Assembly (NCBI RefSeq): GCF_001426485.1
Contig: NZ_LMET01000001.1
Coordinates: forward strand, 2,720,354-2,784,353
Direction: 5' to 3'
Origin: Aeromicrobium sp. Root472D3
Lineage (GTDB): Bacteria; Actinomycetota; Actinomycetes; Propionibacteriales; Nocardioidaceae
Length of the DNA stretch: 64,000 nucleotides
In this document: piece after piece, positions 4,682 through 52,358 of the stretch
Layout of the letters: the number at the start of each line of letters is the position of its first letter
Position numbering within the stretch: the first letter of the stretch is position 1
Position numbers and translations under genes: made by a program
Notes under the pieces: generated by a model
The model's database searches: none
What the model saw: the letters and a program-made list of their open reading frames with translations, nothing else
What the model was told of the DNA's origin: nothing

Positions 4682-5460
<779 letters not shown>

Positions 5461-46972: not shown

Positions 46973-47120
46973 GTTCGCCAGGGAGCGAAGCTGGGGGTAC
47001 CTCCCGCGAGCGCAGCGAGTGGGGGCCCGTGAGGGCGAAGCCCGAGGCGAAGCACCCGATCGGGCTTGCGTGAGCCGCCTCGCTTCGCTCACGGTCGGCC
47101 GCAGGCGGCCTCCCTGGCGA
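46973..47120. repeat. MITE-like repeat, copy 1 (with an inserted 39-bp element)
   Basis: First of three related units between the DrrA-type and aminotransferase genes, a 590-bp stretch without genes. It starts TTCGCCAGGGA and ends TCCCTGGCGA, giving 10-bp terminal inverted repeats. It equals copies 2 and 3 apart from a 39-bp block (46991-47029) in its left half and some substitutions. The inner part has further inverted repeats, so the whole unit could fold into a long hairpin. Confidence 0.85.
46991..47029 (+). repeat. 39-bp dispersed repeat, copy 1
   Basis: Identical to 48736-48774 except for one base (T for C at position 7). It sits inside repeat copy 1 in place of the GCAGCGACC stretch of the other copies and contains its own inverted repeat (GGTACCTCCCGC and GGGGGCCC ends). 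Confidence 0.85.
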
Positions 47121-47170
47121 CCGAGTGGTTCCGTTCGCCAAGGAGCGCAGCGCGCCGTGACCACCCCCTC

Positions 47171-47286
47171 GTTCGCCAGGGAGCGCAGCGACCGTGAGGG
47201 CGGAGCCCGAGGCGAACCACAGCGTGAGGGCTTGCGTCGGCCGCCTCGCTTCGCTCACGGTCGGCCGCAGGCGGCCTTCCTGGCGA
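47171..47286. repeat. MITE-like repeat, copy 2
   Basis: A 116-bp unit with the same terminal inverted repeats; it differs from copy 3 at four positions by my reading. A degenerate fragment (47134-47160, reading TTCGCCAAGGAGCGCAGCG) precedes it. Confidence 0.88.
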
Positions 47287-47298
47287 CCGAGTGGTTCC

Positions 47299-47414
47299 GT
47301 TCGCCAGGGAGCGCAGCGACCGTGAGGGCGAAGCCCGAGGCGAACCACAGCGTGAGGGCTTGCGTGAGCCGCCTCGCTTCGCTCACGGTCGGCCGCAGGC
47401 GGCCTCCCTGGCGA
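47299..47414. repeat. MITE-like repeat, copy 3
   Basis: A 116-bp unit, offset 128 bp from copy 2, so the two form a direct tandem with a 12-bp spacer (CCGAGTGGTTCC) that also follows copy 1. Confidence 0.88.
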
Positions 47415-47430
47415 CCGGTCGCCAGGGAGG
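47403..47430. repeat. 28-bp perfect palindrome
   Basis: CCTCCCTGGCGACC followed by its exact reverse complement, made from the end of repeat copy 3 joined to an inverted 14-bp start of the same repeat. It lies 26 bp beyond the stop of the aminotransferase and could end its transcription. Confidence 0.8.
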
Positions 47431-48850: not shown

Positions 48851-49837
48851 TCAGCGCGGGAGCGGGTTGTCGTCGATCGTGCGGACGATCTCGAGCGCGT
48901 GCACCAGGTCGTCCGGGTACTGCGACTCGAACTCGACGTACTCGCCCGTGCGCGGGTGGACGAAGCCCAGCTTGTGCGCGTGCAGCCACTGCCGGTCGAG
49001 GTCGACGCGCTTGGCCAGCGTCGGGTCGGCGCCGTACATCAGGTCGCCGACGCACGGGTGGTGGATCGCGCTCATGTGGACGCGGATCTGGTGGGTGCGC
49101 CCCGTCTCGAGCTTGATCGTCAGCAGGCTCGCGAAGCGGTGCGCCTCGAGCGTGTCGTAGTGCGTGATGCTGTCGCGGCCGCCGTCCTTGACCGTGAACT
49201 TGAAGTCGTGCTTGGGGTGACGGGCGATCGGGGCGTCGATCGTGCCGGTGTGCGGATCGGGGTGGCCCTGCACGAGCGCGTGGTAGGTCTTGTCGACCGA
49301 GCGGTCGCGGAACGCCTGCTTGAGCACGGTGTAGGCGTGCTCGGACTTGGCGACCGCCATGAGCCCGCTCGTGCCGACGTCGAGACGGTGGACGATGCCC
49401 TGGCGCTCGGGCGCCCCCGACGTCGAGATGCGGATGCCGACGCCCGCGAGGTGGTCGAGCACGGTCGGCCCCGACCAGCCGACGCTGGGGTGCGCCGCGA
49501 CGCCGACGGGCTTGTCGACGACCACGATGTCGTCGTCCTGGAACACCAGGCGCATGCCCTCGACCTCGGTCGCCACGACGACCGCGCGGCGCGGCGCCGG
49601 GATCGAGGCCTCGAGCACCGAGCCGGCCGACACGCGGTCGGACTTGGCGGGCGCCTGGCCGTCGAGCGACACGTGGCCCTCGGCGACGAGCTCGCTGGCA
49701 CGGGTGCGCGACAGGCCCAGCAGGCGTGCGAGGGCGCTGTCGACCCGCTCGCCCTCGAGCCCCTCCGGCACCTGGATGACCCGGTGCTCGAGATCGACCT
49801 GCTCGAGGTCGGTGTGCGTGCCGTTGTCGGCGGTCAT
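48851..49837 (-). CDS. rluD: 23S rRNA pseudouridine synthase, RluD type
   Basis: A 328-residue enzyme with an N-terminal S4 RNA-binding domain ([22 protein letters not shown]) and the RluA-family catalytic domain with the Asp in [35 protein letters not shown] and GDLMYGAD complete the pattern. RluD modifies helix 69 of 23S rRNA. The start overlaps the lspA stop (ATGA), the usual lspA-rluD order. Confidence 0.93.
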
Positions 49838-50397
49838 GACTTCTCCTCGCGGGTGCCGTCGATGCGCACGCCCCGCCACGCGCGCCAGACGATGATGATG
49901 GCCGCGAACGTCAGCGCGATGTCGGCGACGTTGCCCACGAAGACCCCGTAGTCGATGAAGTCGACGACGTGGCCCTTGAGCGGCGACGGCTCGCGGAAGA
50001 TGCGGTCCATGAGGTTGCCGAGCGCCCCCGAGAGCAGCAGCCCCAGGCCGACGGCCCAGCCGCGGTCGCGCAGCCGGGGCGCGACGCGGACGACGCCGAT
50101 GCACACCGCGATCGCGATGATGCTGAGCACCAGCGTGAACCCGGCTCCCGTGCTGAGCGCGGCGCCGGGGTTGCGCAGGAACGTCAGCGACAGGACGCCC
50201 GGGATGATCTCGATCGACTCACGGCCCTGCAGCCTCTCGACGGCCACGACCTTGGTGACCTGGTCGAGGACGAGCGACACGACGGCGACGACGGCGAACA
50301 GCCGTACGTACGTCCTCGTGGTCGCGCCGTGGTCGTCGCCAGGGCTCAGCGACGCTCCTCGCGCTGCTTGCATGTCATCCGAAGAGGAGTCACTCAT
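49834..50397 (-). CDS. lspA: Lipoprotein signal peptidase (signal peptidase II)
   Basis: A membrane aspartyl protease that cuts signal peptides of diacylated lipoproteins, acting after Lgt. Four spans are seen; [31 protein letters not shown] and [11 protein letters not shown] carry the conserved residues, with the two catalytic Asp in GNLMDRI and NVADIAL. The start is uncertain: ATG 50397 (beginning MSDSSSDD, 187 residues) and ATG 50373 (beginning MQAARGAS) are both possible. Codons before 50379 come from the adjacent island, so the original start was probably within or just after the old dksA end. Confidence 0.9.
50356..50378. repeat. Direct repeat at the left end of the island (attachment-site candidate)
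   Basis: A 23-bp sequence identical to 51967-51989. On the minus strand it reads as a copy of the last codons of the traR/dksA gene (M-T-C-K-Q-R-E-E) and runs on, after the repeat, through R-R and a TGA, so it still looks like the original gene end. Confidence 0.88.
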
Positions 50398-50516
50398 GCG
50401 CGGCACCCCATTCGCTCGACATATCGCATCCATAGTCCCACGAGGTAGTCATACGCAATCCGGTCGGTCCGCCAGACAGCCCGACCATCGGGCCCATGCG
50501 GATCAACTGCCCGTTG

Positions 50517-50990
50517 CTACACCCCGAAGGCCGATCCGCAGAGTAGGCAGTGCAGCCGAGCCGGATGGTCCGCGGGGATCTTGACTGGTTCGAAACTGTG
50601 GCAGGGCGAAGCGACGATCATCATGTCGTTCGGCTCGACCAGGGGCTCGGACTCGTCCGGCAGAATATCGTTGCCACGCTCGTATGTCATGCCCTTGACG
50701 CCCCGGAACATGGACTCAAGCCCGTCCTCGACGATGCCCATGACGTGAGGCATCGCCATCTGCTGCGCTACTTCGAGTTGTTCCGTGGTGTACCAAGAGT
50801 CCAGGCCTGCTGGTTCGCCGCACAGCGGGCAGTAGTACGTCTCGGCCGCGCCGAAGTTCTCAGCAACTTCGTTCGCAGGGCCGTCATGCCACTTGAACTG
50901 CTGCTCGCAATGAGGACATTCTCGACGAATAAAACCGTCGGCGTCCTGTGGAATTTGAACAGAGACTTCGATCTCGAACTCATCGTCCAC
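50517..50990 (-). CDS. Small zinc-ribbon protein, partner of the TIR-like gene
   Basis: A protein of about 157 residues. Cys25/Cys28 (ECPHC) and Cys54/Cys57 (YYCPLCGE) form one zinc ribbon; ASPCHSFEPVK and LHCLLCGSAFGV near the end could form a second metal site. The middle is Glu/Met-rich and helical. No enzyme motif. The GTG at 50990 follows AGAGGAG at 7 nt and overlaps the TIR gene by 11 bp, so it is co-translated. Probably a regulator, sensor or nucleic-acid-binding partner; the family is not one I recognise. Confidence 0.7.
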   Translation of the reverse strand: MDDEFEIEVSVQIPQDADGFIRRECPHCEQQFKWHDGPANEVAENFGAAETYYCPLCGEPAGLDSWYTTEQLEVAQQMAMPHVMGIVEDGLESMFRGVKGMTYERGNDILPDESEPLVEPNDMMIVASPCHSFEPVKIPADHPARLHCLLCGSAFGV

Positions 50991-51879
50991 TGACAAACTC
51001 CTCTTGAGCAATCTCTACGCCATCCGCCGTTCTGCCTCGCAACATCACAGTGAAGTAGGCCGGAGTAGAGGACGCGAACGACATGAACCTCGCGGCCGAG
51101 ACCGACTTACCCGGGGGCAACTTGGGAACTGGGAAGCCTTCTTCGCGCCACTCGCGAGTGCCCTCGCGATCATAAGGCAGCTCGAAATCGAGCTCGTACA
51201 CGTCTCCCGGTCCATGATTGGTGATCGTCATCCGCTCACTGCTCTTGCCGGCCTTGCTCAAAGAGATTGACATTCGGGGTTGCCCCGAGGTCTGCGAGGA
51301 GGGGAGCTTGCGGCCCATCGGGAGTCCGCCCCCCGGCTGCGGGGGCGGCGTGAGGTCACCGTCAGAGTGCCAGTCGGTGCCGTCGAGCACGACCGAACAT
51401 CCAGCCGTCTTCAAGCGAGTCGCCAAGTCTTGGCGCTTCTCCACTGAGTTGTTCAAACGGACAACGTGGCGCCCGTGTATGTCGCTGAAGCTACGGATCT
51501 GCCCCAGTTCGACGATGATCGTCCGATCCTCATCCCGTGCCAGCGCCATCCCTGCTTCGAACAGCACGTTCGGCCGGGGCTGCATCTGAGGTTGCGTATC
51601 TGGGTCGTCCGGGGAAGTCAGAGACTCGTGAAGATGCGCTACGTCATCCGGAGTCTGAAGGACCACGACGGCTTGAGCCTGACCGAACGCGACATTGAGA
51701 ACTTCGCCGATGTACGGGGAACCCTTCCCCGTCATCGCGATTGCGCGGGCCCATTCGATCGGCTCGAGCCCGATAGACCGCAAGAATGCGAACACACCGC
51801 GGCGAGCGGCATCGTTACGTCCGTGAATTACGAAAACTTTGCGCGGATCCACTTCGGACGCCGAACTGTCGACCGTCAT
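50980..51879 (-). CDS. TIR-like (PF10137-type) protein with a C-terminal beta-rich domain
   Basis: A 299-residue protein. Residues 14-175 match the TIR-like nucleotide-binding domain: KVFVIHGRNDAARRGVFAFL, LEPIEWARAI, VVVLQTPDDVAHLHESL, PRPNVLFEAGMALARD (Glu108 is in the place of the catalytic Glu) and TIIVELGQIRSFSDIHGRH. TIR domains of this type (CBASS Cap12, Pycsar effectors) destroy NAD+ during phage infection. The last 110 residues (SISLSKAGKSSERMTITNHG, YELDFELPYD) look like an Ig-like or CARDB-type beta sandwich rather than STING. The ATG follows AGGAGAA. First gene of the island. Confidence 0.82.
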   Translation of the reverse strand: MTVDSSASEVDPRKVFVIHGRNDAARRGVFAFLRSIGLEPIEWARAIAMTGKGSPYIGEVLNVAFGQAQAVVVLQTPDDVAHLHESLTSPDDPDTQPQMQPRPNVLFEAGMALARDEDRTIIVELGQIRSFSDIHGRHVVRLNNSVEKRQDLATRLKTAGCSVVLDGTDWHSDGDLTPPPQPGGGLPMGRKLPSSQTSGQPRMSISLSKAGKSSERMTITNHGPGDVYELDFELPYDREGTREWREEGFPVPKLPPGKSVSAARFMSFASSTPAYFTVMLRGRTADGVEIAQEEFVSGR

Positions 51880-51891
51880 GCTTCTCCTGAA

Positions 51892-51914
51892 CTCTCCGTG
51901 CGTTTACCGGAGAG
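51892..51914. promoter_or_regulatory. Palindromic site upstream of the TIR-like gene
   Basis: CTCTCCG and CGGAGAG (7-bp inverted repeat, 9-bp spacer) lie 13-35 bp before the TIR ATG. A GATACT on the minus strand just beyond it could be a -10 box. Possible operator or leader hairpin. Confidence 0.35.
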
Positions 51915-51956
51915 TATCGGAGGCCTCGGACAATCAGTCTGTAATGAGCGACGAGT

Positions 51957-52358
51957 TCATCGTCTTTCCTCGCGCTGCTTGCATGTCATGCACAGTGTCG
52001 CACGCGGGAACGCGATCAAACGATTCTTGCCGATCGCCTCGCCGCAGACCTCGCACTGGCCGTAGGTGCCCTTCTCGAGCCGGTCGAGCGCCTTCTCGGT
52101 CTGCAGCAGCAGCTCGCTCTGGTTGGCGCGCAGCGACATCTCGGCATCGCGCTCGAGGCCCTTGGAGCCGACGTCGGCCTGGTCGTTGCCGGCACCGTCG
52201 ACACCGTCGCGCAGCAGGTCCTGCAGCTCGCGGGCCGAGGCGTCGAGCTCGACGCGCAGCCGGGCGAGATCGCCCTCCAGCTCGGTGCGGACCTCCTTGG
52301 CCTCGGCTGCGGTCCAGGGGGTCTCGTCCGCTCGCACGGCGAGCTTGGTGTTTGGCAT
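51957..52358 (-). CDS. TraR/DksA-type zinc-finger protein
   Basis: A 133-residue protein with an N-terminal coiled-coil region (AKEVRTELEGDLARLRVELD) and a C-terminal zinc finger CEVCGEAIGKNRLIAFP then CMTC. Such proteins bind RNA polymerase in its secondary channel or act on ppGpp-dependent transcription; the DksA loop acidic pair is not clearly kept, so the exact role is uncertain. The last codons (GAG GAA AGA CGA TGA) are supplied by the island; the copy at 50356 ends GAG GAG CGT CGC TGA. The start is 6 nt after a good promoter. Confidence 0.88.
   Translation of the reverse strand: MPNTKLAVRADETPWTAAEAKEVRTELEGDLARLRVELDASARELQDLLRDGVDGAGNDQADVGSKGLERDAEMSLRANQSELLLQTEKALDRLEKGTYGQCEVCGEAIGKNRLIAFPRATLCMTCKQREERR
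51967..51989. repeat. Direct repeat at the right end of the island (attachment-site candidate)
   Basis: Second copy of the 23-bp repeat, within the 3' end of traR/dksA. Distance between copies is 1611 bp. It contains GCATG/CATGC-like inverted bases near its middle, as att sites often do. Confidence 0.88.

Follow-up and report, generated by a model that had tools for sequence, protein, structure and literature searches.

The window analyzed here, a stretch of 64,000 nucleotides from the genome that we designate G000, carries a traR/dksA gene (dksA below) and lspA, which are separated by an insert bounded by a 23-bp direct repeat (Table 1). The two copies of this repeat are identical at every position, and the same peptide is read from both on the minus strand. 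Repeat finding between 49500 and 53000 places the 23-bp sequence first among the direct-repeat families listed, and in a longer register of 33 nt the copies match at 88%. Its length alone does not make the repeat unique, since the eight longest exact repeats of the window (25-62 nt) are found at other places, either inside a cluster near 47 kb or between this cluster and 48.7 kb; the weight therefore rests on position and on comparative data. In the G000 genome, a search allowing up to two mismatches finds the repeat at the two insert ends and nowhere else. The cluster near 47 kb comprises intergenic repeats of 128 and 166 bp at 47027-47417, with matches of 90-96%, and a 31-bp exact repeat close to it links 46999 and 48744.

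Table 1. Features at the dksA-lspA locus of the window
Feature	Position	Strand	Basis
lspA (signal peptidase II)	49834..50433	-	PF01252 4.3e-30; ORF list; relatives
attR-like repeat copy (23 bp) on the lspA side; contains native lspA start codon	50356..50378	-	repeat finding; relatives; computed
Insert, 1,588 bp, 60.1% G+C	50379..51966	.	computed; missing from G006 and other native loci of the genus
Zinc-ribbon protein, 157 aa from GTG	50517..50990	-	PDC-M14A 6.5e-19; conserved motifs
TIR-domain protein, 299 aa	50980..51879	-	PF10137 5e-26; PDC-S35 8.6e-19; model
Foreign dksA 3' end, AAGACGATGA	51957..51966	-	motif AAGRMGATGA also in G010 and G032
traR/dksA (zf-dskA_traR, 133 aa)	51957..52358	-	PF01258 2.2e-12
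attL-like repeat copy (23 bp) on the dksA side	51967..51989	-	repeat finding; computed identity

The interior of the insert is poorer in G+C than the window as a whole (70.8%), and none of 625 sliding windows of the same length has a lower value. An earlier note on this DNA had described the identical 23-base ends, had counted 33, 35 and 50 G+C in three samples of 60 bases, and had proposed an insert of lowered G+C that holds two genes and no integrase. The identity and all three counts proved exact when recomputed, the G+C of the insert is the lowest that the window reaches over such a length, and the ORF list and family searches likewise show two genes inside it, each with a match to a family, but no integrase.

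The junction of dksA and lspA

The native start codon of lspA is the ATG at 50373-50371 (minus strand), which lies within the left repeat copy, and the lspA frame in G000 is open upstream of 50373 as far as an insert-borne ATG at 50433. Because the left copy includes this start codon, the repeat represents the overlap of two genes and not the end of dksA alone. In most native loci of the genus, the alignment of the lspA frame reaches into the dksA end. Where the shared stretch begins, the codon is ATG in 21 of the 43 native loci, GTG in 13 and CTG in nine, and thus an ATG overlap is certain for about half of them; lspA seems to start downstream in some others (G033, G048 and G026). Twenty-three of the 43 share an identical 27-mer, TGCAAGCAGCGCGAGGAGCGTCGCTGA. 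Dual coding accounts both for the conservation of this junction and for the need of an insert to duplicate the overlap. Beyond the genus, dksA directly precedes lspA, with no insert, in all 59 genomes that could be paired from the dksA and lspA matches listed, the largest raw distance being 89 bases in a case where the lspA alignment starts late. This agrees with the earlier proposal that the insert splits a conserved gene pair. The native dksA ends of G001, G015, G016 and G023 (L046-L049) contain AT-rich codons (AGGAAAGA...), unlike the other loci of the genus that were read.

On the coding strand, the dksA side of the G000 insert reads ATGACATGCAAGCAGCGCGAGGA (23 bp) followed by AAGACGATGA, which is foreign, and the lspA side reads the same 23 bp followed by GCGTCGCTGAGCCC, which is native, as in the closest relative, G006. 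With foreign bases after one copy and native bases after the other, the crossover is placed within the 23 bp. The native dksA ending of relatives, GCGTCGCTGA or a close variant, follows the left copy in G000. The right copy had been taken in the earlier note for the original dksA end; this assignment is reversed by the comparison, since the left copy is the native junction and the last 10 bases on the right are foreign. These 10 bases leave the end of the dksA protein (ERR-stop) unchanged. The motif AAGRMGATGA stands immediately after the core in three of the five filled genomes known to us from the genus (G000, G010 and G032) and in none of the 43 native junctions, nor does it occur there in the other family-genome matches listed. 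An exact scan of the genome contigs for TGCAAGCAGCGCGAGGAAAG returned four loci, two of them inserts and two of them native endings that continue GCGCTGA.

The repeat and foreign ending together read AGGAAAGACGATGA in G000, with similar sequences in G010 and G032, and this segment may combine a Shine-Dalgarno-like stretch with an ATGA stop/start overlap. The reading frames that follow ATGA extend for only 8 to 10 codons and differ among the three genomes, so the feature may be a by-product. Ahead of lspA, the motif CGTGTGGGAGACTCG is found in G010, G012, G025 and G033 and, with one change, in G032; it may serve as a promoter for lspA.

Empty and filled sites in the genus

The genus set consists of 49 genomes, in 48 of which dksA was found at a strong score; the remaining one (G038, 58% complete) gave a weak match and is not among the 48 junctions read. 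All 48 loci could be assigned, 43 as native and five as filled (G000, G010, G012, G025 and G032), with the sequence of G034, G037 and one G035 contig running out 25-40 bases past the dksA stop and native as far as it goes. No gene lies between dksA and lspA in G033, where lspA begins after a short spacer. One-copy relatives free of an insert, whose existence the earlier note had made a check on its reading, are represented by G006 for G000 and by G020 and G022, the sisters of filled G010, and the second such check, other genes at the same place, is borne out in four other genomes of the genus.

G010 (Aeromicrobium ginsengisoli JCM 14732) has the identical 23-bp repeat in the identical place, with unrelated cargo. 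Its foreign end is AAGAAGATGA, and 1,592 bp separate the repeat starts. Three genes occupy the interval, encoding proteins of 122 aa (no match), 133 aa (below cut-off) and 225 aa (DUF4304, with no match in plasmids). In G032 (Aeromicrobium sp. YM.16), the ending is AAGGCGATGA, the cargo is a DUF6578 gene, and the lspA-side repeat copy has decayed. G012 and G025, whose cargo proteins were assigned by their match to the G032 protein, carry DUF6578 genes that are 58% and 53% identical to it; native-type sequence follows both of their repeat copies, the foreign ending is absent, and the lspA-side copy of G025 carries a mismatch. DUF6578 is thus present in three of the 49 genomes, each time at the dksA-lspA site. 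Across the cargo of G000, G010 and G032, the Pfam cut-off is reached only by the TIR, DUF4304 and DUF6578 domains, and the four cargo proteins of G010 and G032 have no PADLOC match.

A tree built from dksA plus lspA pairs G000 with G006 (support 0.86) and groups G010 with G022 and G020 (0.75 and 0.87), which makes the insertions in G000 and G010 separate events. By our count, three or four insertions took place in the genus: one each in G000, G010 and G012/G025, plus one in G032 that may be the same event as in G012/G025. Across eight 50-bp windows on the dksA side, G010 matches empty G020 at 48-50 of 50 positions and empty G022 at 45-50, and the window touching the repeat matches both at 50 of 50 on either side. 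Import with long homologous flanks was accordingly rejected for G010, whose flanks match those of its empty sisters up to the repeat. For G000, the windows adjoining the repeat match G006 at 48 of 50 positions on the dksA side and 50 of 50 on the lspA side. As near-equal scores are reached with other genomes (on the dksA side, 49 of 50 with G024 and 48 of 50 with several others; on the lspA side, 49 of 50 with three genomes other than G006), these windows hardly discriminate, and the flank evidence is weaker than for G010. Farther from the repeat, G006 is usually, though not always, the best flank match. Taken from comparison of these loci, insertion at a recurrent site is strongly supported.

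A TIR-domain protein and a zinc-ribbon partner

The G000 cargo encodes representatives of two separate PADLOC candidate families, PDC-S35 and PDC-M14A. In the TIR-domain protein, PF10137 (CAP12/PycTIR TIR) spans residues 14-143 at 91.5 bits, against a curated cut-off of 24.7. A stretch reading NVLFEAG is conserved, together with its glutamate, a residue with a catalytic role. The C-terminal part is predicted, at low confidence, to be beta-rich. Comparison of the modeled structure (mean pLDDT 62) gave no match at E 0.001 or better, and sequence searches found no solved structural relative. The protein fails the CBASS Cap12 model (NCBIfam NF050171), at 13.7 bits against an equivalog cut-off of 450, and neither the ORF list nor the family search places a cyclase gene beside the effector within the insert. 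The GTG start of the zinc-ribbon gene overlaps the TIR stop codon, with the ORF list offering an alternative product of 164 aa from a TTG at 51011. Its conserved motifs, CPxC, CPxCG, PCH and CLxCG, suggest that the protein binds zinc.

The two genes are adjacent in each of five other loci checked (L058 and plasmids L060-L063), and they form a conserved pair that is present on actinobacterial plasmids as well. Among 72,556 plasmid records, the TIR protein is found in 10 and the zinc-ribbon protein in nine, with seven records common to both. Of the 294 genomes of the family, three have the zinc-ribbon protein, one of these occurrences being partial. G118 (L064, G118:C1:3058000-3068500), which belongs to a different genus of that family, has the pair approximately 2.5 kb from a tyrosine-integrase gene; the direct repeats found around the pair there belong to one 19-nt family that does not flank the pair. 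A fragment in G048 (L065, about 4844-5056) resembles the C-terminal half of the zinc-ribbon protein and is 51-53% identical to it. Five viral contigs (L070-L074) encode TIR domains 47-54% identical to that of G000, the match ending before the C-terminal part of the G000 protein and L073 running off its stretch; the zinc-ribbon protein has no phage match. From the TIR family and the PADLOC candidate models, the effector and its zinc-ribbon partner are probably an antiphage pair, and the best matches of a literature search do not contain the two family names and give no report of such a TIR/zinc-ribbon defense pair in their titles and abstract openings.

Candidate enzymes and the origin of the inserts

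No integrase-bearing sister element, such as the earlier note had proposed to seek beside the same repeat in larger islands, emerged from searches for second copies of the site. A pattern for the dksA ending matched in 248 of 294 family genomes, and beyond the filled sites a second copy was present only in G035 and G274. Both were rejected as sister elements: the former comprises two contigs of an assembly with 6% contamination, and the copies in the latter lie near opposite ends of a single contig and were taken for an overlap artefact. A looser pattern applied to 391 genomes of the order, a set that overlaps the family set and in which 262 matched, added no further genome with two copies. 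This test covers matching genomes only, and decayed copies escape it, as filled G025 and G032, which show one copy each, illustrate. In viral contigs, neither an exact 20-mer search nor the pattern CK[QR]REERR-stop gave a match, and BLAST with the 33-nt sequence gave one weak, unrelated match in plasmids and none in phages.

Matches to the tyrosine-recombinase and resolvase families number 6 and 3, respectively, in G000, where all PF00589 matches lie outside the insert, 11 and 1 in G010, 4 and 3 in G032 (71% complete), and 2 and 0 in both G012 and G025. XerC and XerD probably account for two of the tyrosine hits in each genome, both of high score. The family and order searches placed no second exact dksA-ending pattern beside any recombinase of the filled genomes. 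Three neighboring tyrosine-recombinase genes in G010 (L066, G010:C1:504500-514500), encoding 323, 490 and 427 aa, lie approximately 76 kb from its filled dksA site and resemble a recombinase trio. No tie between these genes and the site was found. The best inverted pairing within the core is 6 of 9 positions for the empty junction and 6 of 12 for the inserted type, values that carry no control.

We consider it probable that a recombinase acting in trans inserted the two-gene cargo site-specifically in the dksA/lspA overlap, giving a CIME-like element that lacks an integrase. The cargo module would enter the chromosome by recombination within the 23 bp, by way of a presumed circular intermediate that brings an identical 23 bp and, directly behind it, a dksA ending of its own. 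In this way dksA would gain a new 3' end that specifies the same protein, lspA would keep its native 5' end, and other cargo would enter the same site in related species. The enzyme would come from a plasmid, a phage or an integrative element, one absent from the G000 genome or since lost from it, and the length of the shared core suggests that it would most likely be a tyrosine integrase. Since the overlap forces surviving inserts to keep both ends, selection instead of an enzyme could be responsible for part of the duplication. That consideration lends itself to a rather unlikely alternative, in which illegitimate or plasmid (Campbell-type) insertion at short homology dispenses with a dedicated recombinase and the overlap is kept through survival of both genes. 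Such an origin would suit a dual-coding overlap as strongly conserved as the shared 27-mer, searches that gave neither a site-tied recombinase nor a recombinase-site signature, and the native-type sequence after both copies in G012 and G025. Chance joins would, however, hardly place unrelated cargo within identical 23-bp limits on two occasions or produce the same non-native AAGRMGATGA in three genomes, and the genomes outside the genus are uniformly without an insert, though many of those listed share the overlap sequence.

The grouping of G012, G025 and G032, whose DUF6578 lineages branch next to each other with the gene always at this site, could also reflect one old insertion in the genus, followed by replacement of cargo through homologous recombination and by precise losses; the sharing of CGTGTGGGAGACTCG among three filled genomes and insert-free G033, with one change in G032, points the same way. 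We regard this history as very unlikely: empty sisters exist for both G000 and G010, exact loss would have to occur independently many times, and no imported flank is visible in G010. Scarcely credible is a non-autonomous transposon with a 23-bp target duplication. The conserved foreign ending directly beside the repeat speaks for one, but the ends of G000 and G010 have no terminal inverted repeats worth the name (the best end match in G000 was reached by 133 of 5000 random pairs, and G010 has none), no transposase match lies inside the insert, and the target is the same every time, as judged from searches elsewhere with the sequences of the repeat and of the dksA ending. The likely mechanism is site-specific recombination, with the enzyme supplied in trans.

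Islands moved by tyrosine integrases are known at the 3' ends of tRNA or protein genes, where the incoming DNA replaces the gene end synonymously. The dksA-lspA inserts share the synonymous 3'-end replacement and a recurrent site with varied cargo, and they differ in that an integrase was seen at none of the five filled sites. Cis-mobilizable elements (CIMEs) are described as decayed integrative elements that have kept attL and attR (PMC5704250). Like them, the inserts have direct repeats of att-like character at the 3' end of a gene (exact over 23 bp in G000 and G010, with one copy in the empty sisters) and foreign cargo that lacks integration or transfer genes. Unlike them, they have no parent integrative element sharing their att site in the second-copy searches, occupy a two-gene overlap in which a 5' end must also be kept, and measure only about 0.5-1.6 kb. 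The G000 TIR protein resembles the TIR effectors of Pycsar and CBASS through its PF10137 match, and differs from them in its N-terminal TIR domain with a predicted beta-rich C-terminal part, in its zinc-ribbon partner and in the lack of a cyclase in the insert. Phage satellites and hitcher elements are likewise small islands that depend on helpers (PMC10803314, PMC11389934), and the insert differs from them in that no satellite genes were seen in it. Literature searches on dksA as an integration site and Aeromicrobium islands, and on CIMEs and integrase-less islands, yielded no report of the dksA-lspA site in the titles and abstract openings of their best matches.

We offer as a tentative possibility that very small cassettes without an integrase use the overlap as a dedicated landing site. 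They would bring a surrogate dksA ending (giving the Shine-Dalgarno-like stretch and ATGA restart) and, at the other end, an lspA start region that has a promoter of its own, and one as yet undescribed helper recombinase would move them. If so, a near-frozen dual-coding junction across many hosts would be the protein-gene counterpart of the tRNA-gene attachment site. The inserts raise the question of which recombinase moves elements that encode none. The dksA/lspA overlap adds an attachment site at which two overlapping genes must both survive integration, and the surrogate gene ends show how an element can solve this problem. For the genus, it constitutes a hotspot whose small cargo genes, including the candidate TIR and zinc-ribbon defense pair that plasmids also carry, can be looked for by a simple junction search.
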